Positions 25,640 through 47,135 of a stretch of DNA of 64,000 bases are shown one piece after another. The notes beneath the pieces were generated by a model. That model was given only the letters and a program-made list of their open reading frames with translations, was not told the origin of the DNA and did no database searches. A program made the translations under genes and the position numbers. The stretch is from Microlunatus phosphovorus NM-1. GTDB lineage: Bacteria > Actinomycetota > Actinomycetes > Propionibacteriales > Propionibacteriaceae. The DNA lies in contig NC_015635.1 of assembly GCF_000270245.1 (NCBI RefSeq), forward strand, positions 3,410,001 through 3,474,000, given 5' to 3'. Each line of letters starts with the position of its first letter. Within the stretch, counting starts at the first letter, position 1.

Positions 25640-26872
25640 ATGAGTTCACCATCACCCCTGACGCCCCCGGATCAGGTCGCCACCCTGACGCTGACCGCGC
25701 CCGAGGCACCCAAGCCGGTCGTCGCCACCCAGGCCCCGGCGATCGCCCCGCAGGTCGACCCGACGCAGGTCCCCGCGCTGGACGCTCGGGTGGACGGGTT
25801 CCTGGATGCGCTGACCAACGCCCAAACCCGGTCGCCGGAGTTCAGTGCCCAGGCGGAGAACGTCCGGACCATGGGCGACCAGGAGATCCGGCGGGCGGCC
25901 GAGACGTCCAACCGGCTGCTGAACACCCCGGTCAAGGCGCTGAAGGAAGGCGGCATCGCCGAGGGCTCCAAGGTCGGCACCACGCTGCTGCAGCTACGGC
26001 GTACGGTCGAGGACCTTGACCCGAGCCAGGCCACCGGCACGCGCAAGCTGCTCGGCTTCCTGCCGTTCGGTGACAAGGTCGTCGACTACTTCCGCAAGTA
26101 TCAGGACTCCCAGACGCACCTGAACGGCATCCTGCACAGCCTGCGCAACGGCCAGGACGAACTCGCCAAGGACAACGCCGCGCTCAACATGGAGAAGCAG
26201 AATCTGTGGGCGACCATGGGGCGGCTCAACCAGTACGTCTACGTGGCCGAGCGGTTGGACGCGCGGCTGACCGAACAGATCACGGCGCTCGAGCTGTCCG
26301 ACCCGGATCGGGCCCGGGCACTACAGCAGGATGTGCTGTTCTATGTCCGGCAGAAGCACCAGGACCTGCTCACCCAACTCGCCGTCTCGATCCAGAGCTA
26401 CCTGGCGATCGACATCATCATCAAGAACAACATCGAGTTGATCAAGGGCGTCGACCGAGCGTCGACCACCACCGTCTCGGCGCTGCGGACCGCGGTGATC
26501 GTGGCCCAGGCGCTGGGCAACCAGAAGCTGGTACTCGATCAGATCACCGCGTTGAACACCACCACCTCGGACCTGATCCAGCGGACCTCGGAGATGATGC
26601 GGGACAACTCCGCCGCCATCCAGCAGCAGGCCGCCTCGGCGACCATCGGCCTCCCCCAGCTGCAGGCTGCGTTCGCGAACATCTATGCCACGATGGACTC
26701 GATCGACAACTTCAAGCTGCAGGCGCTCGACAGCATGCAGACGACGATCTCCACCTTGGAGTCGGAGGTGAGCAAGTCGCGGGAGTACCTCGACCGCGTC
26801 AACAATGCCGATCGGCGGCTGGCTTCCGGCGCCCTCGATATCGAGGGCGGCGCCCCGGGTGGGCTCCGCTGA
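25640..26872 (+). CDS. telA: TelA family protein (toxic anion resistance)
   Basis: This 410-residue, mostly helical protein has a Pro/Ala-rich first 45 residues and then the TelA (KlaA) domain. Conserved stretches include QLAVSIQSYLAIDIIIKNN, IELIKGVDRASTTTVSALRT, VIVAQALGNQKLVLDQITAL and NIYATMDSIDNFKLQALDSM. The family was named from plasmid tellurite resistance, but most chromosomal copies have unknown roles in envelope or metal stress. It is the first gene of a long plus-strand operon containing GlnX, GlnH, PknG and PP2C homologues, so here it is more likely part of a signalling or stress complex than a resistance gene alone. Soluble, no signal peptide. Confidence 0.9.
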   Translation: MSSPSPLTPPDQVATLTLTAPEAPKPVVATQAPAIAPQVDPTQVPALDARVDGFLDALTNAQTRSPEFSAQAENVRTMGDQEIRRAAETSNRLLNTPVKALKEGGIAEGSKVGTTLLQLRRTVEDLDPSQATGTRKLLGFLPFGDKVVDYFRKYQDSQTHLNGILHSLRNGQDELAKDNAALNMEKQNLWATMGRLNQYVYVAERLDARLTEQITALELSDPDRARALQQDVLFYVRQKHQDLLTQLAVSIQSYLAIDIIIKNNIELIKGVDRASTTTVSALRTAVIVAQALGNQKLVLDQITALNTTTSDLIQRTSEMMRDNSAAIQQQAASATIGLPQLQAAFANIYATMDSIDNFKLQALDSMQTTISTLESEVSKSREYLDRVNNADRRLASGALDIEGGAPGGLR

Positions 26873-26918
26873 TCTGACTGACCTGACCCGAGCAGCAGAC
26901 CCCTGGGCTTCGACCGAT

Positions 26919-27482
26919 ATGGGATTCAAGGACTGGGTGGCCAAGGTCACCGGACGGCTTGATCCGGAGCCGGTGGCCGCGATGAGCGTCGCACCGGCCG
27001 TGCCGACCGAGCACGACATCATGAATGCGCTGGACCGGGCCGATGCCATGGTCTCCGGAGGTGTGGTGCCGGCTCCGGTGCAGTCGCGGGTCAAGCGGGT
27101 GACCGCGACCGTACGCCAGACGATGCCACGACTGCGCAATCTCGGCCTGGGCAGCCCGGAGGCGTACTCGGTGATGGCGACCGCCACCGACTATCTGCCG
27201 GAGGCGATCAACGGCTACCTCCGGCTGCCCCGCGAATGGGCAGATTCCCGCCCGGTCGAGAATGGCAAGAGTTCCCTGCTGGTGCTGATCGATCAGCTCG
27301 ACCTGCTCGGCTCCACGATGGACAAGATCTTCGACGCCGTCGTCCGGGTGGACGCGGCCGCACTGATCGCCCATGGCCGGTTCCTGCAGGAGAAGTTCGG
27401 TCATCCCGACAACACCCCGACGAGACCGCCGATGATGAACCCGCCCTCGAACACCCCACGCAGCAGTCTGGATCTGCCATGA
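26919..27482 (+). CDS. Uncharacterised small helical protein of the TelA operon
   Basis: The 187-residue product from ATG 26919 lies 46 bases after telA. It begins MGFKDWVAKVTGRLDPE and has a predicted helical core (SRVKRVTATVRQTMPRLRNL, then SSLLVLIDQLDLLGSTMDKI). The C-terminus is low-complexity (PTRPPMMNPPSNTPRSS). No known domain was recognised. Some TelA genes in Firmicutes are paired with XpaC-like helical proteins, and a distant relationship is possible but not shown. The stop overlaps the AAA ATPase start (ATGA). Confidence 0.75.
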   Translation: MGFKDWVAKVTGRLDPEPVAAMSVAPAVPTEHDIMNALDRADAMVSGGVVPAPVQSRVKRVTATVRQTMPRLRNLGLGSPEAYSVMATATDYLPEAINGYLRLPREWADSRPVENGKSSLLVLIDQLDLLGSTMDKIFDAVVRVDAAALIAHGRFLQEKFGHPDNTPTRPPMMNPPSNTPRSSLDLP

Positions 27483-28633
27483 GTTGGCTGGACCTGAGTC
27501 GTCTGGACCCGAACGCGCCGGGACGGTTCCCGGGCGTCGGTTCCGTCCCCACGGAGCCGCCGAATACGGAGCGACCCACTACGGAACCCCCGGTCACCCG
27601 GACACCGAGCACGACGTCTGGGCCACCAGCGCCGCCGGGGGCCGAACCAGCGACACCCACGACTGCCGCCGCCACACCAGAGAGCGCGGTCCCCGAAGCG
27701 GAGCCCGAGCCGGAGAAGACCCTGGACGAGTTGCTGGCCGAGCTCGACGCACTGATCGGGCTCCACGAGGTGAAGGCGGAGATCCATCGCCAGGTCGCGG
27801 TGCTGCGGGTCGAAGGACTGCGGACCAAGGCCGGGCTGAAATCGGCCACCATCACCCGGCATCTGGTCTTCGTCGGCAACCCGGGCACCGGCAAGACCAC
27901 GGTCGCACGCCTGGTCGGCGGCATCTATCGGGCCCTCGGCCTGCTCACCAAGGGTCAGCTGGTCGAAGTCGACCGCTCCGAGCTGGTGGCCGGCTACCTG
28001 GGCCAGACCGCGATCAAGACCGCTGAGGTGGTGGCCAGCGCGGCCGGCGGGGTGCTGTTCATCGACGAGGCGTACTCCTTGGCCGGCGACCAGTACGGCA
28101 CCGAGGCGGTCGACACGCTGGTCAAGGAGATGGAGGACCGACGCGACGATCTGGTGTTGATCGTGGCCGGCTACCCCGATCCGATGGTCGTCTTCATCGC
28201 CCAGAACCCCGGTTTGGCCAGTCGGTTCCGGACCACCATCGAGTTCGCCGACTACACCTCCGACGAGCTGCTCGCCATCTTCAAGTCGACGGCGGCGAAG
28301 GCCGACTACGACCTGCCCGAGGCGACCCAGGAGCGGTTCACCGCGATCCTGGCTGCGACGCCGCGCGGTCCGTCCTTCGGCAACGGACGGTTCGCGCGGA
28401 ACCTGCTGGAGGGTGCCGTCGGCCGGCACGCCTGGCGGTTGCGCGACATCCCCGAGCCGACGGTGACACAGCTCCGCGAGCTGTTGCCCGAGGACGTGGG
28501 TCCGGAGCCGAACCCACTGGATGTCGGCGAATTGGCGCCACTGCTGGGCCCGCCGCCAGAACCACTGTCAGACCCAGCTGACATGGTGTCCGGACAACCC
28601 ACCGAGGTCGACGACAGCGAGGAGACCACATGA
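27479..28633 (+). CDS. CbxX/SpoVK-type AAA ATPase
   Basis: The 384-residue protein has a disordered Pro/Thr/Glu-rich N-terminus (about 1-80) and then one AAA+ module. Visible are IGLHEVKAEIHRQVAVL (family lead), Walker A GNPGTGKTT near residue 141, the pore-loop-like region GYLGQTAIKT, Walker B GVLFIDEAYSL near 195, and an arginine-finger candidate in NPGLASRFRTTIEF. Relatives include CbbX and the N-terminal partner of type VII secretion EccA; they form hexamers that remodel partner proteins. Both gene ends overlap neighbours by 4 bases (ATGA), so it is made with the TelA-operon proteins, which are its likely clients. Confidence 0.9.
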   Translation: MSWLDLSRLDPNAPGRFPGVGSVPTEPPNTERPTTEPPVTRTPSTTSGPPAPPGAEPATPTTAAATPESAVPEAEPEPEKTLDELLAELDALIGLHEVKAEIHRQVAVLRVEGLRTKAGLKSATITRHLVFVGNPGTGKTTVARLVGGIYRALGLLTKGQLVEVDRSELVAGYLGQTAIKTAEVVASAAGGVLFIDEAYSLAGDQYGTEAVDTLVKEMEDRRDDLVLIVAGYPDPMVVFIAQNPGLASRFRTTIEFADYTSDELLAIFKSTAAKADYDLPEATQERFTAILAATPRGPSFGNGRFARNLLEGAVGRHAWRLRDIPEPTVTQLRELLPEDVGPEPNPLDVGELAPLLGPPPEPLSDPADMVSGQPTEVDDSEETT

Positions 28634-29919
28634 CGCAGCCGTCCGCGGCCGCCGCCACCGCGCCAGTCGCCGCCCCCGGGGTGCCGAGCCTCGCGGTCCC
28701 GGTGGCTTCAGCGCTGCCCGCGCCTTCTGTGCCCAGATCCAAGCCGCGTGACACGCCGCGCGAGCTGCGCCGCCTGACCACCGCGGTGATCACGCTCAGC
28801 CTGGTGTTCGGGCTGCTGGGCCTGAGTCTGTTCACCTTGCTCACCTGGTCGATGCAGCGGGCGTCGGGAGCCACCGCGCAGACGATCCGGATCCAGCAGA
28901 TCCAGACCAATCTGCAACGGGCGGACGCCAATGCGACCAATGCCTTCCTGGTCGGTGGTTTGGAGCCGGCGGACCAACGAGCCGCGTACGAGGAAGCCAT
29001 CACCACTGCTTCCCGGCTGATCGCCGAGGCCGCCGACGCGGAGCCGGCGGACCAGGCCGCGTTGGCGGCACTGAACGTGGAACTGGTCGACTACACCGAG
29101 AACATCGAGCTCGCCCGCGCCAACAACCGGCAGGGCTTTCCGATCGGCGCGCAGTATCTGCGGCTCGCCAGCAGCGGACTGCGGGCTGACGCGTTGCCGA
29201 TCCTGCAGAACCTGGTCGATGCCAACGCCCTGCGCGCCAGCAGTCAGATGAAGGTGACCATCGCGATCCCGATCGCCATCATCGAGCTGGTGCTGCTCGG
29301 TGGCCTGGTCTGGGGCCAGGTCTGGCTCGCCAAGCGTTTCAGACGACGCTTCAACGTCCCGTTGGCGATCAGCACCGGCATCGGCGTGGTGAGCATCATC
29401 GTGACCACGGTGCTCATCTCCTGGTCGGCGGCCAGCCTGGCGGGTGTCCGCGACGGCAACTTCGCCGACGTCCGTGCCGCCTCCAACGCCCGGGTCGCTG
29501 CCAACGACGCGAAGTCCAACGAGAGCCTGACCCTGATTGCCCGCGGCAGCGGTGGGGCGTTCCAGGAAGCGTGGCAGGCCTCTGCGGACTCGGTGGCGGC
29601 GGATATCACCCGCTTCCGGGACCTGGGCTCGCTGTGGCAGCCCTACGTCGACGTCCACACCGAGATCCGGGCGCTGGATGACGGCGGGCAGTGGGACAAG
29701 GCGGTGCAGCTTGCGACGTCGAAGTCCAACACCACCTTCGACGCCTTCGACCAAGCGGTCGCCCGACAGGTCGATGGCTCCGGCGCCGCCACCACCGCTG
29801 GGCTGGCCCGGTTGATGCCGTGGATGATCGTCGGCGCGCTGCTCGCCGCGGCGGCCGGGGTCACGATGGCGGCTCTGGGCCGCCGAGGGGTGCAGCAGCG
29901 GCTGAAGGAGTACCGATGA
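28630..29919 (+). CDS. glnX: GlnX-like four-helix membrane sensor protein
   Basis: The 429-residue protein has a disordered Ala/Pro N-terminus (1-40), then four predicted membrane helices: about 50-71, 209-232, 245-268 and 396-418. Two extracytoplasmic helical segments lie between helices 1-2 and 3-4, each like a sensory four-helix bundle half. Position, length and topology match mycobacterial GlnX (Rv0412c), which with the lipoprotein GlnH passes external Asp/Glu availability to PknG. GlnH-like and PknG-like genes follow directly. No kinase or cyclase output domain is fused, so signalling must go through protein contacts. ATGA overlaps at both ends. Confidence 0.82.
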   Translation: MTQPSAAAATAPVAAPGVPSLAVPVASALPAPSVPRSKPRDTPRELRRLTTAVITLSLVFGLLGLSLFTLLTWSMQRASGATAQTIRIQQIQTNLQRADANATNAFLVGGLEPADQRAAYEEAITTASRLIAEAADAEPADQAALAALNVELVDYTENIELARANNRQGFPIGAQYLRLASSGLRADALPILQNLVDANALRASSQMKVTIAIPIAIIELVLLGGLVWGQVWLAKRFRRRFNVPLAISTGIGVVSIIVTTVLISWSAASLAGVRDGNFADVRAASNARVAANDAKSNESLTLIARGSGGAFQEAWQASADSVAADITRFRDLGSLWQPYVDVHTEIRALDDGGQWDKAVQLATSKSNTTFDAFDQAVARQVDGSGAATTAGLARLMPWMIVGALLAAAAGVTMAALGRRGVQQRLKEYR

Positions 29920-30866
29920 GACGCCGTACTGTCCCCGCGCTGCTCGCCGCACTCACCGGTTTGCTCGCCATGCTGGCAGGCTGCGGGCTGAGCTACGACC
30001 CGACCCCGCTGCCGTCGGCGCCGAGTCCCTCCGCGGCGCCCACCACCCAGAGCAGCGCCGCGCCGCAGTGCGACAACGCGCTCGCCTCCTACGACGCCAG
30101 CGACACCGCCGGCGCGGCGGTGAAAAGGATCCAGAAACGTGGTCGGATCATCGTCGGCGTCTCGGCCGACACCTATCTGCTGGGTTCACGCAATCCGTTC
30201 AACGGCAAGATCGAGGGCTTCGACATCGACATCGCCAAGGCGGTGGCGAAGGGCATCCTCGGCGACCAGAACGCCTACGAGCTGAAGGTGATCACCGCCG
30301 CACAGCGGATCCCGGCCCTGCAGGACCGCAGTGTCGACATGGTGGCCCGCAACATGACGATCACCTGCGACCGCTGGACCCAGATCGCCTTCTCCACTGA
30401 GTACTACCGATCGGGTCAAAAGGTCCTGGTGCGGCGGGGCGCCAAGGCCACCACCCTGGCTGATCTGGCTGGTCAACGGGTCTGTGCGCCGAACGGCACC
30501 TCGAGCATGACGAATCTGGTCAAGCTGCAGCCGAAGGCGACCGCGGTCGGCTCGGACAACCACACCGGCTGCCTGGTGCTGTTCCAAAGCGGCCAGGTCG
30601 ACGCCATCACCGGCGACGACACGGTGCTCGCCGGTCTGGCCGCCCAGGACCCGTACGCGGTGGTACCCGATCAGAAGGCCTTCACCGCCGAGCCGTACGG
30701 CTTGGGATTCAACAAATCCGATGTGGATCTGGTCCGCTTCGTCAACGGGGTGCTGGCCGAGGTCCGCAGCGACGGCGAGTGGACCAGGATCTACGACCGG
30801 TGGCTGGCCGAGGCGCTCGGACCGGCCCCGGCACCGCCCAAGGCCGTGTACGGCAGGTCCCGATGA
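29916..30866 (+). CDS. glnH: GlnH-like amino-acid-binding lipoprotein
   Basis: The 316-residue protein has a lipoprotein signal (MRRRT, hydrophobic core, lipobox LAGC with Cys near residue 23), a Ser/Pro spacer, and a type 3 solute-binding domain: IVGVSADTYLLGSRNPF, IEGFDIDIAKAVAKGIL, DMVARNMTITCDRW, and C-terminal GLGFNKSDVDLVRFVN. Homologues bind aspartate, glutamate or glutamine. No ABC permease or ATPase gene is near, which fits a sensor rather than a transporter role, as for mycobacterial GlnH. It overlaps the GlnX-like gene by ATGA. Four Cys in the mature part (CDN, TCDRW, VCAPN, GCLV) may form disulfides. Confidence 0.88.
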   Translation: MRRRTVPALLAALTGLLAMLAGCGLSYDPTPLPSAPSPSAAPTTQSSAAPQCDNALASYDASDTAGAAVKRIQKRGRIIVGVSADTYLLGSRNPFNGKIEGFDIDIAKAVAKGILGDQNAYELKVITAAQRIPALQDRSVDMVARNMTITCDRWTQIAFSTEYYRSGQKVLVRRGAKATTLADLAGQRVCAPNGTSSMTNLVKLQPKATAVGSDNHTGCLVLFQSGQVDAITGDDTVLAGLAAQDPYAVVPDQKAFTAEPYGLGFNKSDVDLVRFVNGVLAEVRSDGEWTRIYDRWLAEALGPAPAPPKAVYGRSR

Positions 30867-30885
30867 TCGCCTCCGGCAGGGTCTC

Positions 30886-32007
30886 GTGACCGTCGGATCG
30901 GCCCAGGCACCCGAGGCCCCGGGCCGGATGGGGGTCGCCGCGGAGCCGGCGGCCCTGTTGAGCTATCTCGAACTGCTAGGTCGGTGGCGCGACGCGCGAC
31001 GCGCCGAGCTGAACGAGCTGGACCGAGCGGCGCTGTCGTCGGCGACGGGCACGGCGGCAACGGCCGACATCGCCTTGTCGCTGGCCTTGTGGAAGGCGGT
31101 CGCCGACCGCTACGAACAGCTGCTGGTGGTCTGGGACTCGGGCCGGGTCGGGGTCAGTGAGCGGGAGAAGCTGTCGGCGATGATCTGGGGCCGCCTCGAT
31201 GCTGCGTACGCCAACAGCGGCCTGTCGGTCTCACTGCCCGAGGCCTGCCGACTGTCCGATGCGTTGGTCAGCCAACTACGGGTCCGACTCGGCCTGGACA
31301 TCTCCGCGCTGGAGACCACCCAGCGGATCGCCGAGTTGCGGGCGCAGCTGGAGCGAATCCGCGACCAGATCTCCCTGGAGCCCGCAGGGGTCCGGCAGCA
31401 GGAGGCTGCCACGACCCAGTCAAAGCTGGCTCGGCGACTGAAGGAGATCACCGAGAAGGCCGGCCGCGGTGGCGACGTCGGCGGGCTGCTGCCGGCGTTG
31501 GAGATCGACGCGGCCCGGTTCGAGCGGGACCTGATCGTCGGTGCGGCCAAGCGGCGGGAGGCTCGGGCCGAGGTCGAGCAGGTCCGTCGGTTGCGTGCTG
31601 GGTTGGAAGCTCGGGAGGAACGGCTGCGAGCGCTCGCGAGCGAGGCGGTCGCCACCGTCGACCCGGCACCCCGCTATGCGGTGCCCGATGTCGAGGCGCT
31701 GGGGCCGGTGCCCAACACGATGGACCGGCTGGCCGACTATCGACGTCGGCTGGAACTGGTCGACCGAGCACTGACGCTGGCCGACGAGGCGTACTCGAAT
31801 GCACTGCGACAGCACAGCGACCTGCTGGCCAGAATGGACGCCTATCACCTGAAGGCCACCGCCACCGGGGTTGCCGACCAGCCGTCGGTCGCGAACGCGT
31901 ACGGCCTGGCCACCGCGGCACTCGCCGAGCGCCCGACGAAGATGGCGTTGGCCGCCCAGCTGGTGAGCCTCTATCAGACCTATCTGCAGACGATGACAGC
32001 CTCGTGA
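30886..32007 (+). CDS. Coiled-coil protein of the PknG operon, unknown function
   Basis: From GTG 30886, 19 bases after glnH, the product is 373 residues; ATG at the MGVAAEP position is an alternative. It is strongly helical and charged, with likely coiled coils near residues 135-200 (IAELRAQLERIRDQISLE, SKLARRLKEITEKAG) and 215-260 (RREARAEVEQVRRLRAGLEA). The C-terminus carries a helical pair. No membrane segment, signal peptide or known domain was seen. It sits between the binding protein and the kinase, and could be a scaffold linking GlnX to PknG; that is inference from position. The pknG ATG follows after 10 bases, with GAGGAGAC as ribosome site. Confidence 0.8.
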   Translation: MTVGSAQAPEAPGRMGVAAEPAALLSYLELLGRWRDARRAELNELDRAALSSATGTAATADIALSLALWKAVADRYEQLLVVWDSGRVGVSEREKLSAMIWGRLDAAYANSGLSVSLPEACRLSDALVSQLRVRLGLDISALETTQRIAELRAQLERIRDQISLEPAGVRQQEAATTQSKLARRLKEITEKAGRGGDVGGLLPALEIDAARFERDLIVGAAKRREARAEVEQVRRLRAGLEAREERLRALASEAVATVDPAPRYAVPDVEALGPVPNTMDRLADYRRRLELVDRALTLADEAYSNALRQHSDLLARMDAYHLKATATGVADQPSVANAYGLATAALAERPTKMALAAQLVSLYQTYLQTMTAS

Positions 32008-32017
32008 GGAGACAGCG

Positions 32018-34399: not shown

Positions 34400-34437
34400 C
34401 AGAGCCGATCTGACAGAGCCGACCTGACTGAGCTGAC
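34396..34437 (+). repeat. Three tandem 14-bp units between pknG and the PP2C gene
   Basis: CTGACAGAGCCGAT, CTGACAGAGCCGAC and the weaker CTGACTGAGCTGAC follow each other at 34396-34437, starting inside the last codon region of pknG. GGAG just after serves as ribosome site for the PP2C gene. Repeated TGA words give stops in more than one frame. A related CTGACTGACCTGACC stretch follows telA at about 26876. Confidence 0.75.
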
Positions 34438-34448
34438 CCGGAGAGCGA

Positions 34449-35588: not shown

Positions 35589-35600
35589 GTGTGAGCGGCC

Positions 35601-39088: not shown

Positions 39089-39100
39089 GAGTTTCCTCAC

Positions 39101-39373
39101 CTACTCCATACAGCTACGCCATTTATGTCCTTATGTTATATCAAATTCCGTACCGGAGCTAGACCCGCTGACGGGCGTCCTTGCTCACTCCCGGCTTGTC
39201 CCGAAAGGGGATCGACACGAGTGCGCGAGAGACCCCCGCGTGGGCGGCAGCGTCCTCCATCGTGGGCCGCCGTGCCGTACGCGGGGACTCTTGCGCAGGT
39301 CCAGACATATATGCATACTCGGCCCGAAGTGGAGGCTGGCGCGCGCTAGTTTCGGGGTCGAGAAGGGACCTGA
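39101..39373. promoter_or_regulatory. Divergent control region of the transketolase and isomerase units
   Basis: These 273 bases lie between minus-strand tktN and the plus-strand dehydrogenase remnant/Hyi pair. Bases 39119-39150 are strikingly A/T-rich (ATTTATGTCCTTATGTTATA), with a direct repeat of TTATGT eight bases apart; on the minus strand TATAAC is a -10 candidate. For the plus strand, TTGCGC (39291-39296), 17 bases, then CATACT (39314-39319) is a good promoter candidate. A 22-bp stretch at 39307-39319 around ATATATGCATA contains the palindrome TATGCATA. A shared regulator of both units is likely but not encoded nearby. Confidence 0.5.
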
Positions 39374-39712
39374 ATGGGCATCGAGATCACCAAGCCGCTC
39401 GGATCGGACGTGGTTCGGGTGGGCTTGATCGGAGCTGGCCGGATCGGCAGCTCCCACGCGCAGCTGAATGCCGAGCGAGCGCCAGGCGCCCAGCTGGTCG
39501 CTGTGGCCGACCCGCGTCCGGCTGCGGCTGCCGAACTGGCGGCACCGTTCGGAGCCCGCCCGTTCGCTGATCCGGCCGAGCTGATCGCGATCGCCGCCGC
39601 GGACGAGGCGCGAGTGGCCCTGCAGATCGCGCTGGCCTGCATCGAGTCTGTCCAGCAGCATGCCGCAGTCGCCCTTGACCCGGTGGGCGGAGTGCAGGAG
39701 GTGGCGCGCTGA
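39374..39712 (+). pseudogene. Internally deleted Gfo/Idh/MocA dehydrogenase (inositol 2-dehydrogenase type)
   Basis: The 112-codon frame begins with an intact Rossmann start (VRVGLIGAGRIGSSHAQLNA, then VAVADPRPAAAAELA) and then jumps, near ADPAELIAIAAADEA, to what looks like the extreme C-terminus of the same family (DEARVALQIALACIESVQQH). About 220 middle residues, including the catalytic EKP and DAGxDxxxH regions, are missing. The deletion kept the frame, so a short protein could be made, but it cannot be an active dehydrogenase. Its stop overlaps the next ATG (TGATG), so it may still serve to couple translation of the Hyi gene. Confidence 0.82.
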
Positions 39713-40494
39713 TGACCACTCCGTTCACTCTCGCGGTCTGCTCCGAGATGGTGTTCACCGATCGGCCGCTGATCGAGCGGGTCCGGCGCATCGACGATCT
39801 CGGCTTCGCCGCTGAGATCTGGGACTGGACCACCAAGGACCTGACGGCACTGGCCGCGACCGGGGCCATGTTCACCTCGATGACCGGCTACATCCGTGGT
39901 GACCTGATCACTCCCGACGGCACTGACGAGCTGCTGCGCACCGCCGAGGAGTCGATCAAGGCGGCCGCGACGTTGGGCGCACCGCGGCTGAACCTGCACG
40001 GCACAGGACTCGACGGACGCGGACTTCCGGTGCTGCCGGCCGAGGTGGTGACGCCGCCGATGTGGTTTGCGGCCGAGGCCACACTGAGCCGCATCGCCGC
40101 CCTCGGAGAGCGCGAGGGAATCGTGTTCTGCTTGGAGAATCTCAACACCGCCGTCGACCATCCCGGTACGCCGTTCGCCAAGGCGGCCGACACGTTGGCC
40201 TTGGTCGAGGCCGTCGACAGCCCGCATCTGCGGCTGATGCTGGACCTTTATCACGCCCAGATCGGCGAGGGGAACCTGATCGAGCTGATCCGTCGCTGTG
40301 GCGACGCGATCGGGGAGATCCAGGTCGCCGATGTGCCCGGTCGCTGTGAGCCCGGCACCGGTGAGATCAACTATCCGGCGATCGCCCGCGCGCTGGCGGA
40401 TCTGGGCTACACCGGCACCGTCGGGTTGGAGGCGTTCGCATCGGCTGACTCCGAGCTGGCCTTGGAGCGCTTCCGTACCGCCTTCACCCTCTGA
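39712..40494 (+). CDS. hyi: Hydroxypyruvate isomerase family protein
   Basis: The 260-residue TIM-barrel protein matches the Hyi/YgbM-type group. It starts FTLAVCSEMVFTDRPL, with FAAEIWDW near residue 34, catalytic Glu in FCLENLNTAVDHPGTPF near residue 141, a metal-ligand Asp-His in LMLDLYHAQIGEGNLIELI, IQVADVPGRCEPGTGEINYP, and a second Glu in GLEAFAS. Hyi converts hydroxypyruvate to tartronate semialdehyde; some relatives act on sugar acids or oxo-tetronates. It is coupled to the preceding truncated dehydrogenase. It fits the neighbouring tartrate-dehydrogenase-like and transketolase enzymes, both able to meet at hydroxypyruvate. Confidence 0.88.
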   Translation: MTTPFTLAVCSEMVFTDRPLIERVRRIDDLGFAAEIWDWTTKDLTALAATGAMFTSMTGYIRGDLITPDGTDELLRTAEESIKAAATLGAPRLNLHGTGLDGRGLPVLPAEVVTPPMWFAAEATLSRIAALGEREGIVFCLENLNTAVDHPGTPFAKAADTLALVEAVDSPHLRLMLDLYHAQIGEGNLIELIRRCGDAIGEIQVADVPGRCEPGTGEINYPAIARALADLGYTGTVGLEAFASADSELALERFRTAFTL

Positions 40495-40505
40495 CTTCCC
40501 GCGCG

Positions 40506-40976
40506 TCAGCTCGCCAGGTGAGCGGTCGGCTCCGTCCGGACCGGGAAGTTCACCGAACTGGCGATGAAGCAGTTCTCGTGTGCCTCGTGGTGCAACGAGT
40601 TCGCCGCTGCGATCATCGATTCCTCGGCGACAGCCACCGTCGGGCGGAGAACGACCTCGGTGAACCGGCCGCCGTCACCGATCTGCTCCATCACGCCCAC
40701 GGCCTCGTCACGATAGGCGGTCACCACAACGCCGTGGATCGCGCACAGATGCAGATAGCTCAGCAGGTGGCAGTCCGAAAGCGCCGCGACCAGCAGCAGT
40801 TCCGGGTTCCAGCGTGTCGGATCACCTCGGAACACCGGATCAGCCGACGCCGGCAGCATCGGCCGGCCCTCGGCCGCCAAGTCGTGATCGCGACCGTACG
40901 CCCGGTAGTGAGACGTGCCCTCACCGCGGTTGCCGGTCCAGGTCGTGGTGATCGCGTACGTGTGGCTCGGCGCCAT
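40506..40976 (-). CDS. OsmC/Ohr family peroxiredoxin-like protein
   Basis: The 156-residue protein has the two catalytic cysteines of the OsmC family in their usual setting: LLLVAALSDCHLLSYLHLC near residue 68 and HENCFIASSVNFPV near residue 136, spaced as in OsmC. Such proteins reduce organic hydroperoxides using thiols. N-terminal HTYAITTTWTGNRGEGT is also typical of the family. Convergent with the Hyi gene (11-base gap), and followed in reverse by a small membrane protein gene 3 bases upstream of its ATG. Confidence 0.9.
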   Translation of the reverse strand: MAPSHTYAITTTWTGNRGEGTSHYRAYGRDHDLAAEGRPMLPASADPVFRGDPTRWNPELLLVAALSDCHLLSYLHLCAIHGVVVTAYRDEAVGVMEQIGDGGRFTEVVLRPTVAVAEESMIAAANSLHHEAHENCFIASSVNFPVRTEPTAHLAS

Positions 40977-40979
40977 CCG

Positions 40980-41513
40980 TCACCAACCGACGACGTCGAG
41001 CACCTCGACCGACGTCCGACGATCGGACAGGTTCGTCGGAGCAGCCAGGCTCGTCGGAGCAGCCAGAGCCGTTGGCACAGTCAGCGGAGCAGGGGCCGCG
41101 ACGTCATAGGCCACCGGCGTCGGCGCGTCATAGCCGAACCAGCGATCGCGAGCAGGCAGCAGTTCCGGGATCCGCGCCAGCGAGACGATCAGCTGATCCC
41201 GGGCCAGCCGGTTGCCCAGCTGCCGGGTTGCCGACATCCAATCATCGTGCAACATCAGCGATTCGATCCGGCGCAGGTCCACCATCAGCTGCCGGCGGCG
41301 GGCCATCAGCCACAGCTCGGCGTGCGCCCGCTCCCATTCGGGTGTGTGCTCCGGCCGGCCGAATCGGATCGACAATCCGCGACCCAGCCGGATCAGCCAG
41401 GCCCGGCTGCGCGCGAACCGGAGCAGGAGCGCCAGCGTGAGCAGTGTCCCGAGCACGACCGCCTCACCGATCATCTCCATCCGACTCACCGCCTCCTTGC
41501 GTACCCGAGCCAC
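40980..41513 (-). CDS. Small membrane protein, unknown
   Basis: The 177-residue product has one N-terminal membrane helix (about residues 15-33, GEAVVLGTLLTLALLLRFA), a basic helical middle (ARRRQLMVDLRRIESLML) and an Ala/Pro/Thr-rich C-terminal part. That part is encoded by three 18-bp imperfect repeats at 41030-41083 (APTSLAAPTNL). An internal ATG 11 codons in is an equally good start. No known domain. Its stop is 3 bases before the osmC ATG, so the two may share a transcript. Confidence 0.65.
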   Translation of the reverse strand: MARVRKEAVSRMEMIGEAVVLGTLLTLALLLRFARSRAWLIRLGRGLSIRFGRPEHTPEWERAHAELWLMARRRQLMVDLRRIESLMLHDDWMSATRQLGNRLARDQLIVSLARIPELLPARDRWFGYDAPTPVAYDVAAPAPLTVPTALAAPTSLAAPTNLSDRRTSVEVLDVVGW

Positions 41514-41598
41514 CCACTACAACCACTGTCGCCCCGCGGTCGCCAGCACGCAAGAGCCGTGGGCCACCAACCGCAGGGCGAGGTGACATCATCGGTGG

Positions 41599-42015
41599 GT
41601 GGCGAACCGTATTCGGCTTGGCGTGATCCTGCTGCTCCTCCTCGGAGTGACCGCGGCCTGTGGAGCTCCCGCCAAGCAGCCTGCCCTGGACGGCACCAAT
41701 TGGAACCTGACCGCCTGGGCCGAGCCGGAGCCGATCCCTGCCGGCGTGGCCATCACTGCAGAGTTCGCCGACGGACGGGTCGCGGGCACCTCGGGTGTCA
41801 ACCGCTACAACGGCGCTGTCGAGTCCAGCGCGGACGGCTCGTTCGCCATCGACCGGCCGGTCTCGACCATGATGGCCGGTCCCGAGGACGCGATGAAGGC
41901 CGAGGCCAGCTATCTGCGCCGGCTCGAGGAAGCGACCTCGTACGCCATCGACGGCGACACCCTGGTGCTCACCGACGCCGACGGCCAGCCCTCGTTGACC
42001 TTCACCCGCGCCTGA
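41599..42015 (+). CDS. META/HslJ-domain lipoprotein
   Basis: The 138-residue protein starts at GTG 41599, with a lipoprotein signal ending in LGVTAAC (Cys about residue 21), followed by a META domain: LDGTNWNLTAW, VAITAEFADGRVAGTSGVNRYNG and C-terminal LVLTDADGQPSLTFTR. META domains occur in HslJ (linked to novobiocin resistance and heat shock) and many secreted proteins of unknown function. It should sit on the outer face of the cytoplasmic membrane. Convergent with the YhgE-type gene (18-base gap), which leaves little room for a terminator. Confidence 0.88.
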   Translation: MANRIRLGVILLLLLGVTAACGAPAKQPALDGTNWNLTAWAEPEPIPAGVAITAEFADGRVAGTSGVNRYNGAVESSADGSFAIDRPVSTMMAGPEDAMKAEASYLRRLEEATSYAIDGDTLVLTDADGQPSLTFTRA

Positions 42016-42033
42016 TCCCTCCGTTCCCAGAGA

Positions 42034-44184
42034 TCACGCGGCCGCCAACGGCGGATGCAGATCCTTGACGGTGAATCCCTGCCGGCGCCGGACCACCAGC
42101 ACCGACAACGCGTGTGTGACGACGACGATCGCCAGCAAGACGGCGGCATCTCGGGCTAGGTGCGTCAGCTCGCCGCCGGAGATCACCACCCGGAATCCGT
42201 CGATCAGGTAGGTCATCGGCATGAACGGCGACAGCGCCGCGAAGAAGCCCGGCAACAGCGGTGTCGGATAGGTGCCGCCGGTGGAGGCAAGCTGGAGAAT
42301 CAGCAGCACCAGCAGCAGCGGTGAACCGGCCTCGCCCAGCGCGGTTCGCAGCAGGTGCGCGATCGCGGAGAAACAGCAGGCTGCCAGCACCAACAATGCC
42401 AGGAACAAGAATGGATGGACCGGGTTCAAGCCGAGCAGCACCCAGACGACACCAGCCATCAGCAGACCACCGACAACCGCGATCCCGCCGACCGGCAACC
42501 AGCCGGTCAGCGCCAGCCGGACCGGAGAAGCCCGCCCGGCGAGCGCCCGGCCGGTGATCGGTCGGACCACCAGGAAGACCGAGATACCGAAGACCCACAG
42601 TGCAATGGCAAAGAACATCGGGGCAAGGCCTCGCCCGTAGTAGATGGCCGGGTTGAGCACCTGCATGCTCACGTCTGCCGGTGCGGCCAGCACCTGAACC
42701 GCGTCCCGCTGCTGGTCTCCGCTCAGTGCCGGAAGTCGTTTGACCCCCGCTGCCAGCCCGGTCTCCAGCTTGGTGGCGCCGTCCTGGAGCTTGGTCAGTC
42801 CGGTGTCCAGCTGCGCAGCTCCGCGGTCGAGATCCTTGGCCCCATCGGCCAGGCTGGACGCGCCCGCGCTGAGTTTCGTGGCCCCGTCGCTCGCAGACTC
42901 GATGCCTTGCGCCAGCGAGTTCGCGCCGGTGGACGCCTTCGCCACCCCCGCCGCGACACTGGCCGCTCCGGTCGCGACCTCGTGCGCCCCGGTGTTGAGC
43001 TTGACCACGTTGTCCCGGGCGCCCTTCACCTTGTCGGTCAACGCATTGCTCTGCAGCCTGTCATTGATGGCGTTGGCCCGGTCCACCGCCGTGTCGACGT
43101 GTGAGGCCACCGAGTCGGCTCTCTTCTCGGCCGTCGCCAGGGCCGACTTCGCCCGTTTGACGGCCGGGTCGTCCGCCAGGTCCGGATTCGCCCTGACCGC
43201 GTCATCCAGTGCCTTCGATACCGTGGCCAGATCACTGCTGATGGTCTGGTTGCCTGATCCGACCGCATCACCGATCGAGTTCAGGGTCTTGTTCAGCTCG
43301 GCCGCATCGCTCTTCACCTTCGGCAACACATCGAGGACGTCATCGAGCACCGGGGTGACTCGATCGTTCAGCTGCTGGGTGCCGTCGGCGACCTGGTCGG
43401 CACCGGAGCGCAGCTTCTTCGTACCGGTCTTCAGCTCGCTCAGGCCGGACGAGAGCGAAGAGGCGCCGGTCTCGGCGTTCTCCAGCCCGGTGGCCAGTGT
43501 GGATGCGCCCGTCGCCAACTGCCGGGCACCGGCGGCAGCCTTGGTTGTCCCGGCATGCAGCGCGCTGGCACCCTGCTGAGCGCTGGTCAGGCCCTTGGCC
43601 AGCTCGGCAGCCCCGCGCTGGGCGTCGACCATACCGTCGCGGATCTTGGTCAGGTTGGCGAAGACCGCGTTGAAGTAGGCCACCTCGGCGGCCTCGTTGA
43701 CGGCTCGGGCGATCGAGTTCTGCGCGCTGCCGGTGATGCTGCCGACCACGAAACCGTTCGCGTCGTTGCGGTAGAGCATCACCTTGGCGCGCTGCGGGTC
43801 GTCACCGGCGCCGCTGACCAGGCTGGTCGAGAAGTCCGCCGGGACGCTGATCACCAGGTAGTAGTCGCCGTCACGCAGCCCCTGCTGGGCGGTTGGCTCG
43901 TCCACGTCGTGATACTGGAACGCAGCACCCTTCTTGAGCTCGGAGACGAAGTCCGCACCAGCCGCAATGGTCTCGTTCTGGAAAGTGGTCGGTACGTCGG
44001 CATTGACGACCGCGACGGGCAGCTGGGACAGCCGACCGTACGGATCCCAGTTGGCACTCAGATAGATGGCGCCGTAGAGCGTCGGCACCAGCATCACGAA
44101 GATCAACGCGGCCCGTGGCAACGGGCCGCGGAAGCGACGCAGTTCGAATCGGGCCAGACGCGAGGCGGGCACCGGCAGCGGCAT
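42034..44184 (-). CDS. YhgE/Pip-family membrane protein
   Basis: The 716-residue protein has one N-terminal membrane helix (ALIFVMLVPTLYGAIYLS), a large extracytoplasmic region, and five to six C-terminal helices from about residue 515 on. The outer region contains an alanine/glycine-rich repeat array (SAGASSLADGAKDL and DTGLTKLQDGATKLETG types, heptad-like) as in YhgE and the phage-infection protein Pip. The C-terminal part resembles ABC-2-type permeases. Family members are linked to phage adsorption and to effector export in Gram-positives. The partner ATPase-like gene lies 10 bases upstream on the same strand, but its ATPase motifs are altered. Confidence 0.9.
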   Translation of the reverse strand: MPLPVPASRLARFELRRFRGPLPRAALIFVMLVPTLYGAIYLSANWDPYGRLSQLPVAVVNADVPTTFQNETIAAGADFVSELKKGAAFQYHDVDEPTAQQGLRDGDYYLVISVPADFSTSLVSGAGDDPQRAKVMLYRNDANGFVVGSITGSAQNSIARAVNEAAEVAYFNAVFANLTKIRDGMVDAQRGAAELAKGLTSAQQGASALHAGTTKAAAGARQLATGASTLATGLENAETGASSLSSGLSELKTGTKKLRSGADQVADGTQQLNDRVTPVLDDVLDVLPKVKSDAAELNKTLNSIGDAVGSGNQTISSDLATVSKALDDAVRANPDLADDPAVKRAKSALATAEKRADSVASHVDTAVDRANAINDRLQSNALTDKVKGARDNVVKLNTGAHEVATGAASVAAGVAKASTGANSLAQGIESASDGATKLSAGASSLADGAKDLDRGAAQLDTGLTKLQDGATKLETGLAAGVKRLPALSGDQQRDAVQVLAAPADVSMQVLNPAIYYGRGLAPMFFAIALWVFGISVFLVVRPITGRALAGRASPVRLALTGWLPVGGIAVVGGLLMAGVVWVLLGLNPVHPFLFLALLVLAACCFSAIAHLLRTALGEAGSPLLLVLLILQLASTGGTYPTPLLPGFFAALSPFMPMTYLIDGFRVVISGGELTHLARDAAVLLAIVVVTHALSVLVVRRRQGFTVKDLHPPLAAA

Positions 44185-44194
44185 GGTTTGCTCC

Positions 44195-44890
44195 TCAGTT
44201 CGCCACGGCGGTGGCCGCTGCGGCAGAAGGCTCGGGCTTCGGTAGCCGGTGGATGGAGGTTCCGGACGGCAGCTTGCTCGACTCGAGGACAGTGACGACG
44301 ACGAAGGTGCCGGCTGCGACGAGCGCCTCCAGGCCGGCCATCAACACAGCGCATTCCTCCTCGTCCAGCCCTCGATGGGCACTGTCCAAGAAGACGACTT
44401 CGGCGGGACGCATAGTGGCCAGCGCCACCGCCAGCCTGGTGTAGTCGAGAGCGGTGAGCTGACGTACCTCGGCCGAACGGGGGAACTCGACCTGCAACGC
44501 CGCACAGGCCGCCTCGAACCGAGTGCCAGCCTTGGCCAGGGGCACCGCATCGATCAGCGACCGCTCGGTGATCGATTCCGCGACGGTGAGTCGGGGTTCC
44601 AGCGTGACCAGGTCGTCGACCAGGGCCAGCGAGGTACGGTCGCGCAACAGCCGATTCTGGGTCACGGGATCGTAGCCCGCCACGCGCACCCATCCGGACC
44701 AGCCGCGCATTCGGCCGGCAAGAGTGAGCAGGAGTGCCGACCGACCCGAGCCCGAGCGACCGACGATCGCCGCCAGTCGCCCCCGAGGAAAAGCAAGGTC
44801 CACGTGCTGATAGACCGGCCCTTCGTGCGTCGCCAGCGACAGGTCGCGGGTTTCGATATAGGTAGTGTCATCGTACGAAGCTCTCGCCAT
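44195..44890 (-). CDS. Degenerate ABC-type ATPase-like protein
   Basis: From ATG 44890 the product is 231 residues; an upstream in-frame ATG at 44971 would add 27 residues but lies in tandem repeats. The fold of an ABC ATPase is recognisable: AIVGRSGSGRSALLLTLAGR (Walker A), a signature-like LTALDYTRLAVALATM, Walker B EVVFLDSAHRGLDEEE. However, the Walker A lysine is Arg, the signature LSGGQ is absent, and the catalytic Glu after Walker B is Ser. ATP hydrolysis is therefore doubtful. It is encoded directly upstream of the YhgE-type membrane protein, so it may act as a regulatory or structural subunit of that complex. Confidence 0.78.
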   Translation of the reverse strand: MARASYDDTTYIETRDLSLATHEGPVYQHVDLAFPRGRLAAIVGRSGSGRSALLLTLAGRMRGWSGWVRVAGYDPVTQNRLLRDRTSLALVDDLVTLEPRLTVAESITERSLIDAVPLAKAGTRFEAACAALQVEFPRSAEVRQLTALDYTRLAVALATMRPAEVVFLDSAHRGLDEEECAVLMAGLEALVAAGTFVVVTVLESSKLPSGTSIHRLPKPEPSAAAATAVAN

Positions 44891-44955
44891 TCGCGCAGCG
44901 TACGCATCCTCGTCCGGCTGTCGCGATCCCGTGATCAAGATACTGTGGCATTTCG

Positions 44956-45015
44956 TCGCTAGCAGTGACACAGCGTCGCTATCAGTGACACAGCATCGTC
45001 GTCAGCGAGGCAGTA
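44956..45015. repeat. 20-bp tandem repeat upstream of the vWA gene
   Basis: Units 44956-44975 and 44976-44995 match at 18 of 20 positions around CAGTGACACAGC; a degenerate third unit follows to 45015. Period 20 is close to two helical turns. The repeats lie in the divergent region between the ABC-like gene and the vWA gene, about 30 bases before the vWA ribosome site (GAGGAGGAG). A repeated operator is possible. Confidence 0.8.
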
Positions 45016-45042
45016 GATGCCTGAGCGAGGAGGAGATCGGAC

Positions 45043-46323
45043 ATGGCGCAGTTCACCGCCGCCGTCTACCAGAACGAGTTCCTGCCCGATGGCGGCACCG
45101 ACGTCAACGGGATCGTCACGATCACCTGCACCGGGGCCGGTGAGGCCGGCCGCGGTGGTGGTGGCCAGGCGGGCGAGATCATCATCGTCGACACCTCCGG
45201 CTCGATGGGCCGGACCAAGCTCGAGGCGGCCAAGGTGGCCGCCGCTGCCGCGCTCGACCAGATCCTCGACGGGACCTGGTTCGCCGTCGTGGCCGGCACC
45301 CATGCCGCCTATCTGGCCTATCCGCCGGCCCGCAGCGGCGCCGGCATGGTGCAGATGAACCCGCAGACCAGGCACGAGGCGCAGCAGGCCGTCCGTGGTT
45401 TCCGCTCCGATGGCGGCACCGCGATGGGCACCTGGCTGCTGCTCGCCGGTCGGCTGTTCGACTCGATCCCGATGCTCGCCCAGAAGCACGCCATCCTGCT
45501 CACCGACGGTGAGAACCACAACGAGTCCCCCGACCAGCTGACCAGCTCGATCGCCGCCGTCACCGGGAGGTTCCAGTGCGACTGCCGCGGAGTAGGCGTC
45601 GATTGGCAGGTCGCCGAGGTACGCCGGATCGCCCAGGCGCTGCTCGGCACCGTCGACATCATTCCGCGGCCGGAGCAGCTGGCCACGGTGTTCGCCGAGT
45701 TGATGCGCAGTGCGATGAGCCGCGGTGTCGCCGATGCCCAACTGCGGGTGTGGGCACCCCAAGGCGCGCAGGTGCAGTTCGTCCGTCAGGTCTCACCGAC
45801 CGTGGAAGACCTCACCAACCGACGGGTGGAGGTCAATCCCCTGACGGGTGGCTATCCGACCGGCGCCTGGTCGGATGAGTCGCGGGACTACCACATCAGC
45901 ATCCGGCTCTCGCCCAAGGCGATCGGCCAGGAGCAGTTGGCCGCCCGCGTCCAGCTCGCCGTCGGCGGCGAAGTGCTGGCCCAGGGCCTGGTCAAGGCGA
46001 AGTGGTCCGACGACGAGGGCCTGACCACCAGGATCAACCCGGAGGTCGCGCACTACACCGGTCAGACCGAGCTGGCCCAGGCGATCCAGGACGGCCTCGC
46101 CGCCAAAGCGGCCGGCGATGAGGAGGGCGCCACCACCAAGCTTGGCCGCGCCGTACAGTTGGCTGCACAGACGGGCAACGAGGAGGCCACGACCAGACTG
46201 CGCAAGGTGGTCGACATCACCGACATCGAGACCGGTACGGTGCGGCTCAAGCGCAGTGTCGACAAGGCCGACGAGATGGCCCTGGACACCGCATCGACCA
46301 AGACCACCCGAGTTCGCCACTGA
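45043..46323 (+). CDS. von Willebrand A-domain protein linked to the PknG/TelA system
   Basis: The 426-residue soluble protein has a vWA domain at about residues 40-225 with the MIDAS motif IIIVDTSGSMGRTK, a downstream Thr in DGGTAMGTW and the Asp in LLTDGENHN. A beta-rich module (AWSDESRDYHISIRLSP) and a helical C-terminus (QAIQDGLAAKAAGDEEG, later TTRLRKVVDI) follow. No signal peptide. vWA proteins of this type bind metal and assemble protein complexes; with a PP2C and a kinase they form the 'TerY-P' triad proposed in Ter stress-response studies. The FHA gene follows 29 bases later. Strong ribosome site. Confidence 0.9.
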   Translation: MAQFTAAVYQNEFLPDGGTDVNGIVTITCTGAGEAGRGGGGQAGEIIIVDTSGSMGRTKLEAAKVAAAAALDQILDGTWFAVVAGTHAAYLAYPPARSGAGMVQMNPQTRHEAQQAVRGFRSDGGTAMGTWLLLAGRLFDSIPMLAQKHAILLTDGENHNESPDQLTSSIAAVTGRFQCDCRGVGVDWQVAEVRRIAQALLGTVDIIPRPEQLATVFAELMRSAMSRGVADAQLRVWAPQGAQVQFVRQVSPTVEDLTNRRVEVNPLTGGYPTGAWSDESRDYHISIRLSPKAIGQEQLAARVQLAVGGEVLAQGLVKAKWSDDEGLTTRINPEVAHYTGQTELAQAIQDGLAAKAAGDEEGATTKLGRAVQLAAQTGNEEATTRLRKVVDITDIETGTVRLKRSVDKADEMALDTASTKTTRVRH

Positions 46324-46352
46324 CCCCGCGAGCCCGACCAGAGGAGGACCCC

Positions 46353-47135
46353 ATGACGTCGGTCTGCCCGGCCGGACACGACTCCACCGCCGACGACTAC
46401 TGCGACGTCTGCGGCGCACCGATCGACGCCGCCGCCGTCAATCCCCCGTCGTCCAACCCGTTGTCGTCCGATCTGTTGTCGTCCCGAACCGGTGCGACAC
46501 CTCACCTGAAGCCGGCTCCCGGCGCCTCATCCACCGGTGGTGGCCAGCGCTGCCCGCACTGCGGGACCGAGAACGTCGCCGAAGCGCTGTTCTGTGAGAG
46601 CTGCGGCTACGACTTCACCACCGGGAGCATGCCGCGGCCGATCGCAGCCCCTGACGTACCGGCCGAGTCGAGCACCGCGCCGGCACCAGCAGCCAGCAGC
46701 TCGTCCCCAGTCTCAGCCGCGTTCACCTGGGTGGCCGAGCTGTGGATCGATCCGGCGTGGTACGAGGCGCAGGACAGTCCGGATCCGCTGCCCTCCCCCG
46801 GGTTGCCGGACACCATTCCGCTGCGCGGCAACTCGATTCTGGTCGGCCGCGTCTCGCGGACCCGCAACATCCACCCCGATGTGGACTGCGGTTCGGACTC
46901 CGGCGTCAGTCGCCGCCAGGCACAGCTGACCACGGATGGCCGGCGCTGGTTCGTCGAAGACCTGGAATCGGCCAACGGGACGTTCATCGGCTCGGCCAGC
47001 GGCGCCCTGCCCGACGACCCGATCCCGGCCGGTGTGAAGCGCGAGCTCGACCCCGATGATCGGATCTATCTGGGGGCCTGGACCCGCCTGGTGATCCGCG
47101 AGGCGACCGAGGACGAGATCGCCGGTCTGGGCTAG
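46353..47135 (+). CDS. Zinc-ribbon and FHA-domain protein
   Basis: The 260-residue protein begins with a ribbon-like module (CPAGHDSTADDYCDVCGAP, residues 5-23), then a linker, then a second four-Cys ribbon (CPHCGTENV...FCESCGYDF, about 68-90), an Ala/Ser/Pro linker, and a C-terminal FHA domain from about 145: ILVGRVSRTRNIHPDVDCG, SGVSRRQAQLTTDG, DLESANGTFIG. The Arg, Ser and Asn residues that bind phosphothreonine are present, so it should recognise a phosphorylated partner, plausibly a PknG substrate. It is not GarA: GarA is shorter, with N-terminal phospho-Thr sites and no ribbons. Co-transcribed with the vWA gene. Confidence 0.92.
   Translation: MTSVCPAGHDSTADDYCDVCGAPIDAAAVNPPSSNPLSSDLLSSRTGATPHLKPAPGASSTGGGQRCPHCGTENVAEALFCESCGYDFTTGSMPRPIAAPDVPAESSTAPAPAASSSSPVSAAFTWVAELWIDPAWYEAQDSPDPLPSPGLPDTIPLRGNSILVGRVSRTRNIHPDVDCGSDSGVSRRQAQLTTDGRRWFVEDLESANGTFIGSASGALPDDPIPAGVKRELDPDDRIYLGAWTRLVIREATEDEIAGLG

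Follow-up and report, generated by a model that had tools for sequence, protein, structure and literature searches.

GlnH-GlnX-PknG is established as a conserved operon and signalling cascade (excerpts of PMC6069109, PMC8546545 and PMC9769921); the GlnH-GlnX and GlnX-PknG interactions are described as not yet demonstrated (excerpts of PMC9769921). In some actinobacterial GTPase-centred systems, a zinc-ribbon kinase is linked to a PP2C phosphatase and a standalone vWA protein (excerpts of PMC7159879). TelA proteins have been linked to tellurite and nisin tolerance: expression of the Listeria xpaC-telA pair rises in response to an envelope-active bacteriocin, telA disruption is cited as increasing nisin and tellurite sensitivity, and the mechanism of TelA is given as not known (excerpts of PMC12791056). 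In Lactococcus lactis, telA1 and an XpaC-like gene were upregulated in membrane-protein overproduction data, in a paper on the envelope-stress pair CesSR (excerpts of PMC3139573). We analyzed a 64,000-nucleotide stretch (the window) of Microlunatus phosphovorus NM-1, whose genome is a single contig of 5,683,123 bases. Ten plus-strand genes in this window join three modules, each also existing apart, in one gene order: a sensor-kinase module (GlnX-GlnH-PknG), a zinc-ribbon phospho-signalling module (CC-PP2C-vWA-FHA), and TelA-HP187-AAA. It is highly probable that the ten genes form one functional unit. A single signalling-effector operon is in our judgement their best explanation (probability about 0.55), and the gene block suggests a kinase-controlled membrane stress machine. 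In a literature search that covered few subscription papers, TelA, HP187 or AAA together with PknG was not found described, nor was a paper joining TelA, a solute-binding protein and a VWA domain; PMC7159879 mentions neither PknG nor TelA.

Genes were established by gene calls with Pfam and NCBIfam scans, and coordinates are positions in the window. These calls bear out the arrangement proposed in an earlier note, with eight plus-strand genes from TelA to PP2C at 25640-35588 and vWA and ribbon-FHA genes 9.45 kb further on. The TelA-family protein (25640-26872, 410 residues) matches PF05816 with E 2.1e-92 and 310 bits against a cut-off of 30. HP187 (26919-27482, 187 residues) has no Pfam or NCBIfam match and no hydrophobic segment by hydropathy; when 33 relatives were compared with Pfam at lax thresholds, the only matches were scattered and weak (best E 0.0059, in a single member), and sequence search found no solved structure relative of TelA or HP187. 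The AAA ATPase (27479-28633, with AAA_lid_6 by Pfam) is CbbX/SpoVK/EccA-like, but its scores of 216-263 bits fall short of the equivalog cut-offs of 423-467 (TIGR02881, 262.8 against 422.95; TIGR03922, 231.2 against 466.65; TIGR02880, 216.5 against 459.25). The GlnX-family transmembrane relay (28630-29919, 429 residues; NF058618, 253.4 bits, cut-off 250) has four hydrophobic segments by hydropathy (residues 48-75, 205-234, 240-273, and 390-411). It is followed by a GlnH-like solute-binding lipoprotein (29916-30866, 316 residues; SBP_bac_3), whose top solved relatives are 6h2t and 6h1u, entries named GlnH (E 4e-66). CC (about 30886-32007, about 373 residues, start codon uncertain) belongs to no family and is a predicted adaptor. 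PknG (32018-34399) carries rubredoxin (PF16919), kinase (PF00069), and PknG_TPR (PF16918) domains, each above cut-off, together with two extra N-terminal zinc ribbons and intact catalytic residues. PP2C (34449-35588; PF13672) has an N-terminal double zinc ribbon (PF12773). The vWA protein (45043-46323; VWA_2 and VWA_3_C) has an intact metal site and no hydrophobic segment, and the ribbon-FHA protein (46353-47135; PF00498) has a double zinc ribbon (PF12773) with Thr-Thr (89-90) past the second ribbon. By coordinates, HP187/AAA, AAA/GlnX, and GlnX/GlnH overlap by four bases in the window. Of 99 AAA/GlnX junctions measured, 95 show an overlap of 4 or 1 bases, a count that the chosen starts favour; start-codon gaps for CC-PknG and HP187-AAA were unreliable and were not used.

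We compared pknG neighbourhoods picked by the PknG_TPR family alone, which was found in 70/147 genomes of the order Propionibacteriales and in 64/396 genomes of the phylum at E 0.001 (47 above cut-off). From a subset of these positives came 45 order loci (window included) and 36 from outside the order, with family and class labels of our own assignment. The reference order TelA-HP187-AAA-GlnX-GlnH-CC-PknG-PP2C-vWA-FHA was kept across Propionibacteriales and several Micrococcales. Among the 45 order loci, GlnX and PP2C were always present, followed by CC and FHA (42 each), TelA, HP187, and vWA (41 each), AAA (40), and GlnH (35), and the parts present were colinear with the window in 44. The exception, L081 (family f83), also lacks TelA, as do L085, L103, and L102; L102 ends at a contig border, and TelA and HP187 lie on another contig of the same genome. 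In L091 and L111, vWA and FHA are situated further along. In the earlier note, the single-system idea would fail if TelA, AAA, vWA, and FHA genes adjoined pknG in this lineage alone. PP2C, vWA, and FHA do adjoin pknG elsewhere: the last seven genes, GlnX to FHA, occur in 14/22 Streptomyces-family loci, and L071, a genome from a different class, carries CC, PP2C, PknG, vWA, and FHA, with GlnH and GlnX on the opposite strand. For TelA, HP187, and AAA, adjacency extends over Propionibacteriales and several Micrococcales; TelA was found in 0/36 loci taken from outside the order after the phylum-wide PknG search. The remaining 8/22 Streptomyces-family loci are divergent PknG-like genes, four with an adjoining vWA gene; in L066-L069 of this family, vWA lies downstream of such a kinase and ends in zinc-ribbon-like cysteines, and GlnH was not found beside them.

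Scanning named genomes with HP187 identified 235 relatives, and the 80 with the best matches were examined. These include loci from Microlunatus, Nocardioides, Kribbella, Enemella, and Granulicoccus, as well as Mobilicoccus, Austwickia, Agilicoccus, Pedococcus, Lapillicoccus, Luteipulveratus, Tetrasphaera, and Pengzhenrongella, the last eight of which we take to be classed as Micrococcales. Within the sequence available, colinearity holds for all 80; 14 lack PknG in that sequence, all of them short pieces or ending soon past HP187, and eight have PknG but no GlnH. In L160 and L179, vWA was not found in the 1-2 kb available after PP2C. Operons of Mobilicoccus, Agilicoccus, and Austwickia (L162, L169, L185, L190, L198, and L223) show no GlnH match and a GlnX that scores weakly at 51-91 bits, and possibly have a different sensor in the GlnH place. 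The 102 loci with TelA and PknG used below mix both collections, with at least eight contigs present twice and L216 and L218 from the same assembly, and are not equivalent to independent genomes.

Compared with the GlnH-GlnX-PknG(-GarA/OdhI) pathway of Mycobacterium and Corynebacterium, the window has the same glnX-glnH-pknG order within one operon, a GlnX above the NCBIfam cut-off, a PknG with kinase and TPR domains, and an OdhI/GarA-like gene elsewhere in the genome. It differs in seven further genes, with CC placed between GlnH and PknG, in the extra zinc ribbons of PknG, and in substitutions where the mycobacterial GlnH pocket has Thr162 and Trp232. None of the 11 Mycobacteriaceae loci has TelA, HP187, AAA, CC, PP2C, vWA, or FHA beside pknG: nine have GlnX-GlnH-PknG and two PknG alone. 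The window resembles zinc-ribbon triads in encoding a kinase (often one with a zinc ribbon) along with PP2C and a standalone vWA; it differs in that its kinase is a PknG with its own sensor, joined by FHA and CC. A triad of this composition, reportedly named TerY-P in a 2012 Ter paper, occurs across the loci, the window's own vWA standing 9.45 kb off.

Co-occurrence points the same way as gene order. HP187 was detected in 68/147 order genomes, comprising 68/70 with PknG and 0/77 without (by genus, PknG 10/21 and HP187 9/21), counts that are not independent because genomes share ancestry. The two PknG-positive genomes without HP187 are G514 and G415. TelA matches occur in 75/147 genomes, 70 at no less than 289 bits (the same 68 plus G415 and G411, where TelA sits in another cassette type) and five below 95 bits. 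Across the phylum, HP187 was found in 4/396 genomes, one weakly. In a quick PknG tree of 66 rows, hand-picked to span groups, operon PknGs form one clade of 42 rows (SH-aLRT 100), with TelA in 39. Given this single clade, one fusion event is the most economical account; the operon was probably joined once and then inherited with rare loss and some transfer. Of the other three clade rows, L166 starts downstream of TelA, and TelA, HP187, AAA, CC, and vWA are missing jointly in L085 and L103. L085 also lacks GlnH and retains GlnX, PknG, PP2C, and FHA, and neither TelA nor HP187 was found in its whole genome (G514). L103, where FHA is also missing, retains GlnX, GlnH, PknG, and PP2C alone; as the second pknG of a many-contig assembly that groups with another family, it may be a stray contig. 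Since CC is missing alongside them in these two loci, it goes with the vWA/TelA side. Gene order and the distribution of HP187 thus uphold the earlier proposal of one conserved, co-inherited unit that includes vWA-FHA.

Mean pairwise identity over loci (102 rows unless stated, rows below 80% of median length dropped) was highest for TelA (74%) and vWA (72%, 90 rows), followed by HP187 (61%), PknG (61%), AAA (60%, 100 rows), FHA (59%, 44 rows), PP2C (55%), CC (52%), GlnH (51%, 84 rows), and GlnX (37%, 100 rows). As TelA and vWA identities exceed those of GlnX and GlnH, constraint is stronger on effector genes than on sensor genes. Residues conserved to at least 97% include the kinase Lys/Asp/Asn/Asp, the rubredoxin Cys (102 loci), the PP2C metal-site Asp, Walker A and B (100 loci), the vWA metal site, and the FHA Arg/Ser/Asn. 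In mycobacterial GlnH, Arg147, Thr162, and Trp232 contact the Asp side chain, and Ser164, Arg169, and Asp250 hold the amine and carboxyl groups (excerpts of PMC6069109). The window GlnH keeps equivalents of Arg147, Arg169, and Asp250 and has Thr for Ser164, but Asn146 stands at the Thr162 position and His216 at the Trp232 position, changing two of three side-chain contacts. Across order loci with GlnH, Thr162 is Asn in 33/35. The Trp232 position holds His, Asp, or Asn in 32 loci and Ile in a single one, L090; two loci, L089 and L091, do not align at this position. The amine- and carboxylate-binding residues are kept in 33/35. Streptomyces-family GlnH keeps the Thr and has Gln in place of Trp. 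The ligand has likely changed relative to mycobacterial GlnH, and the Asp/Glu sensing carried over in the earlier note is not simply transferable.

Zinc ribbons are common to the PknG, PP2C, and FHA proteins. Counted by cysteine pattern, operon-type PknGs of the order have three ribbons in 38/44 (two besides rubredoxin) and two in 5/44, and two ribbons occur in 39/44 PP2Cs and 39/41 FHA proteins. The Streptomyces family has two ribbons in PP2C (14/14) and FHA (14/14), whereas mycobacterial PknGs have one at most (4/11). The window vWA ends in a Thr-rich C-terminal tail, LDTASTKTTRV; LDT[AS]STKT occurs in 83/92 TelA-operon loci, and in the remaining nine the sequence stops or is masked ahead of the tail. 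Outside the TelA operon, [DE]TxST[KR]T occurs in 16/16 loci. vWA genes below 500 bits were excluded from these counts, and two of five such genes (L068 and L069) have part of the motif. Past the second ribbon of the FHA protein, 48/50 TelA-operon loci conserve a Thr, in almost all cases as Thr-Thr. We propose the vWA tail Thr and the FHA Thr-Thr as candidate PknG targets by likeness to the phosphorylated Thr motif of GarA/OdhI, which we take to be ETTS. The OdhI/GarA-like gene of the window genome (L273, G000:C1:2550040-2550384) scores 159.5 bits, below the 200-bit cut-off; its product has an N-terminal zinc ribbon and DTTKT, and ETTS was not found in it. Separately, 5.6 kb downstream of the FHA gene, the minus strand encodes an NAD-dependent glutamate dehydrogenase (52777-57738, 1653 residues) with eight glutamate dehydrogenase domain families; GarA controls this kind of enzyme in mycobacteria.

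TelA also occurs without the kinase. We took 19 TelA loci unlinked to PknG from 17 genomes, with profiles built from five of them. In 11/19, a single-pass solute-binding-like protein and a solute-binding-vWA protein adjoin TelA; a twelfth locus is cut by a contig end. PknG, PP2C, and FHA were not found in these cassettes, whose likeness to the operon is TelA with solute-binding and vWA domains. Kinase-free cassettes in Actinomycetota include L149 (5.7-11.8 kb), L264, L265, L267-L272, L277, and L278, and several also encode a small HP187- or XpaC-like protein. In L149, from another class, the row is solute-binding-like, TelA, solute-binding-vWA, HP187 relative, and AAA. HP187-like proteins occur in L149, L271, and L272, and in L150, which lacks solute-binding genes; HP187 itself has a profile match to an alignment (A3) that holds the L149 relative. 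HP187 relatives in other lineages also adjoin TelA, and cassettes such as L149 indicate that TelA recurs with an HP187-like partner, vWA, and solute-binding sensors where the kinase is missing, a toolkit found elsewhere in Actinomycetota. The TelA-XpaC pair of Firmicutes (lmo1967/lmo1966; L. lactis telA1 with its XpaC-like gene) likewise places TelA beside a small partner. Adjacency to TelA and the hydrophobic N-terminus of the L149 relative (clear there by hydropathy, weak in L271 and L272, absent in L150) suggested that HP187 is an XpaC, which profile comparison ruled out (hhalign probability 0.45% against PF10112-type proteins, 5% for longer HP187 relatives); the likeness is one of position and size alone. 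The earlier description of these parts as Ter-like also did not survive. TerD has no match in the whole genome, and the one TerC match, at 4.37 Mb, lies about 0.9 Mb from the operon at 3.44 Mb, so the label falls back on TelA. No Ter family was found among the ten proteins or scanned neighbours, the genome-wide search having covered TerD and TerC. A Ter system was rejected on the lack of TerD and the distance of TerC.

We hypothesize that the altered pocket of GlnH accommodates an amino acid outside the cytoplasm and that the signal would pass through GlnX to the TPR domain of PknG. PknG would then phosphorylate local targets, most likely the vWA C-terminal tail Thr and/or the ribbon-FHA Thr-Thr, and PP2C would reverse this phosphorylation. 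The shared zinc ribbons and CC may keep the kinase, the phosphatase, and the FHA reader in one assembly. On the phospho-state would depend whether vWA engages the AAA ATPase, which in turn would remodel a TelA-HP187 assembly at the membrane, a remodelling that may tune envelope or toxic-ion tolerance to nutrient state. The full chain, from kinase to TelA mechanism, is tentative and more doubtful than the operon itself. Its most specific form, in which PknG of Propionibacteriales and several Micrococcales directly drives AAA-TelA-HP187 membrane remodelling via FHA-read phosphorylation of the vWA tail, is a degree less likely still.

Several observations weigh against a single operon-wide system. 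The vWA-FHA pair is separable from the other genes, as in the window, G497, and G516. STKT-like tails are present in vWA beside two divergent PknG-like kinases (L068 and L069), so the tail is not operon-specific, and the FHA Thr-Thr occurs in 1/18 loci without TelA. Of the PknG-less TelA loci, 7/19 have no solute-binding or vWA neighbour, and in the cassettes that do, vWA is fused to the solute-binding domain and probably exported, unlike in the window. GlnH is absent, with a weaker GlnX, from 16/102 loci, all of which retain TelA, HP187, CC, PknG, and PP2C; other inputs must therefore exist. Distances are congruent with those of PknG (r 0.89-0.95, 87 loci), but vertical inheritance would produce this in any operon, and the comparison was confined to the operon's own genes. 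Finally, OdhI/GarA-like genes occur in practically every order genome, with or without PknG.

This near-universal presence implies that PknG may act mainly via OdhI/GarA. One alternative is two pathways on one transcript, in which GlnH-GlnX-PknG runs 2-oxoglutarate/glutamate metabolism via GarA, as it does in mycobacteria, and TelA-HP187-AAA-vWA is a separate envelope-stress device for which co-expression is enough. An OdhI/GarA-like gene is present in the window genome and, at 121 bits or more, in 146/147 order genomes (the 147th holds a 78.6-bit fragment, and none reaches the curated 200 bits); the sensor-kinase trio stands alone in 9/11 Mycobacteriaceae loci, and TelA cassettes without PknG exist. 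However, GarA-like genes do not track PknG, HP187 without PknG occurs in 0/77 order genomes, the effector genes and CC are missing jointly in L085 and L103, and kinase, phosphatase, and FHA protein share zinc ribbons. We regard two pathways as unlikely, if worth serious consideration. The alternative that this is mainly an envelope or toxic-ion stress system, with GlnH/GlnX a drifting sensor that no longer reports Asp/Glu, is quite improbable. It fits the low conservation of GlnX and GlnH, the 16/102 loci without GlnH, the pocket changes, and the envelope responses of Listeria xpaC-telA and L. lactis telA1 (excerpts of PMC12791056 and PMC3139573), but GlnH is kept in 35/45 order loci, 33 of those 35 with the amine and carboxylate residues. 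A phage-defence or conflict system is scarcely credible: conflict systems often contain kinase, PP2C, vWA, AAA, and zinc-ribbon domains, and some actinobacterial GTPase-centred systems have a zinc-ribbon kinase with PP2C and a standalone vWA (excerpts of PMC7159879), but gene order is stable over the examined loci rather than patchy, and PADLOC matches are limited to kinase-domain, AAA-domain, and one weak PP2C hit, with none for TelA, HP187, GlnX, GlnH, CC, vWA, or FHA, for which reason a known anti-phage system was rejected.

If the signalling-effector operon is real, PknG, which has been investigated for its roles in metabolic regulation and in virulence, would gain a vWA/FHA output branch shared by Streptomyces-family loci. 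A TelA machine gated by a Ser/Thr kinase would supply TelA with a physiological input and a partner set. Because that partner set is fixed and comes with a defined kinase, phosphatase, and FHA protein, TelA regulation becomes directly testable.

The 9,454 bp between PP2C and vWA (35589-45042) encode, on both strands, an aldehyde dehydrogenase piece, transketolase halves, xylose-isomerase-like, OsmC, and META proteins, and an ABC exporter by Pfam. The PP2C-to-vWA distance is at most 100 bp in 105/115 measured loci (median 11 bp, Streptomyces-type loci included) and 1.2-1.9 kb in three more genomes of the genus. Long gaps also occur in relatives (G497, 11,436 bp; G516, 8,564 bp), with contents unlike the window's. 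Comparison of the window gap proteins with the gap contents of G497, G516, G432, and G396 gave zero matches at E 1e-5. The window's gap is a local feature, and its metabolism and transport genes were rejected as a system part. Since gaps differ in size and content between the window and relatives, vWA-FHA is a movable sub-block. It probably has its own promoter in the window because the preceding gene runs the opposite way; searching the gap for promoters returned zero matches, a result that carries no weight in such an organism.

Upstream, an amino-acid permease (23874-25334) was considered as an eleventh part and rejected, being present in 1/106 loci, the window alone. After the operon, at 47208-49926, come DUF3107, MiaE-like, and DEAD-box helicase genes, with relatives in 14, 8, and 13 of 106 loci, respectively (window included; many loci end earlier); as these relatives recur there, the chromosomal site seems old in near relatives. 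Further upstream, the plus strand encodes a LysX-like protein with fused phosphatidylglycerol lysyltransferase and lysyl-tRNA synthetase domains (16186-19818), a gene type linked to cationic peptide tolerance.

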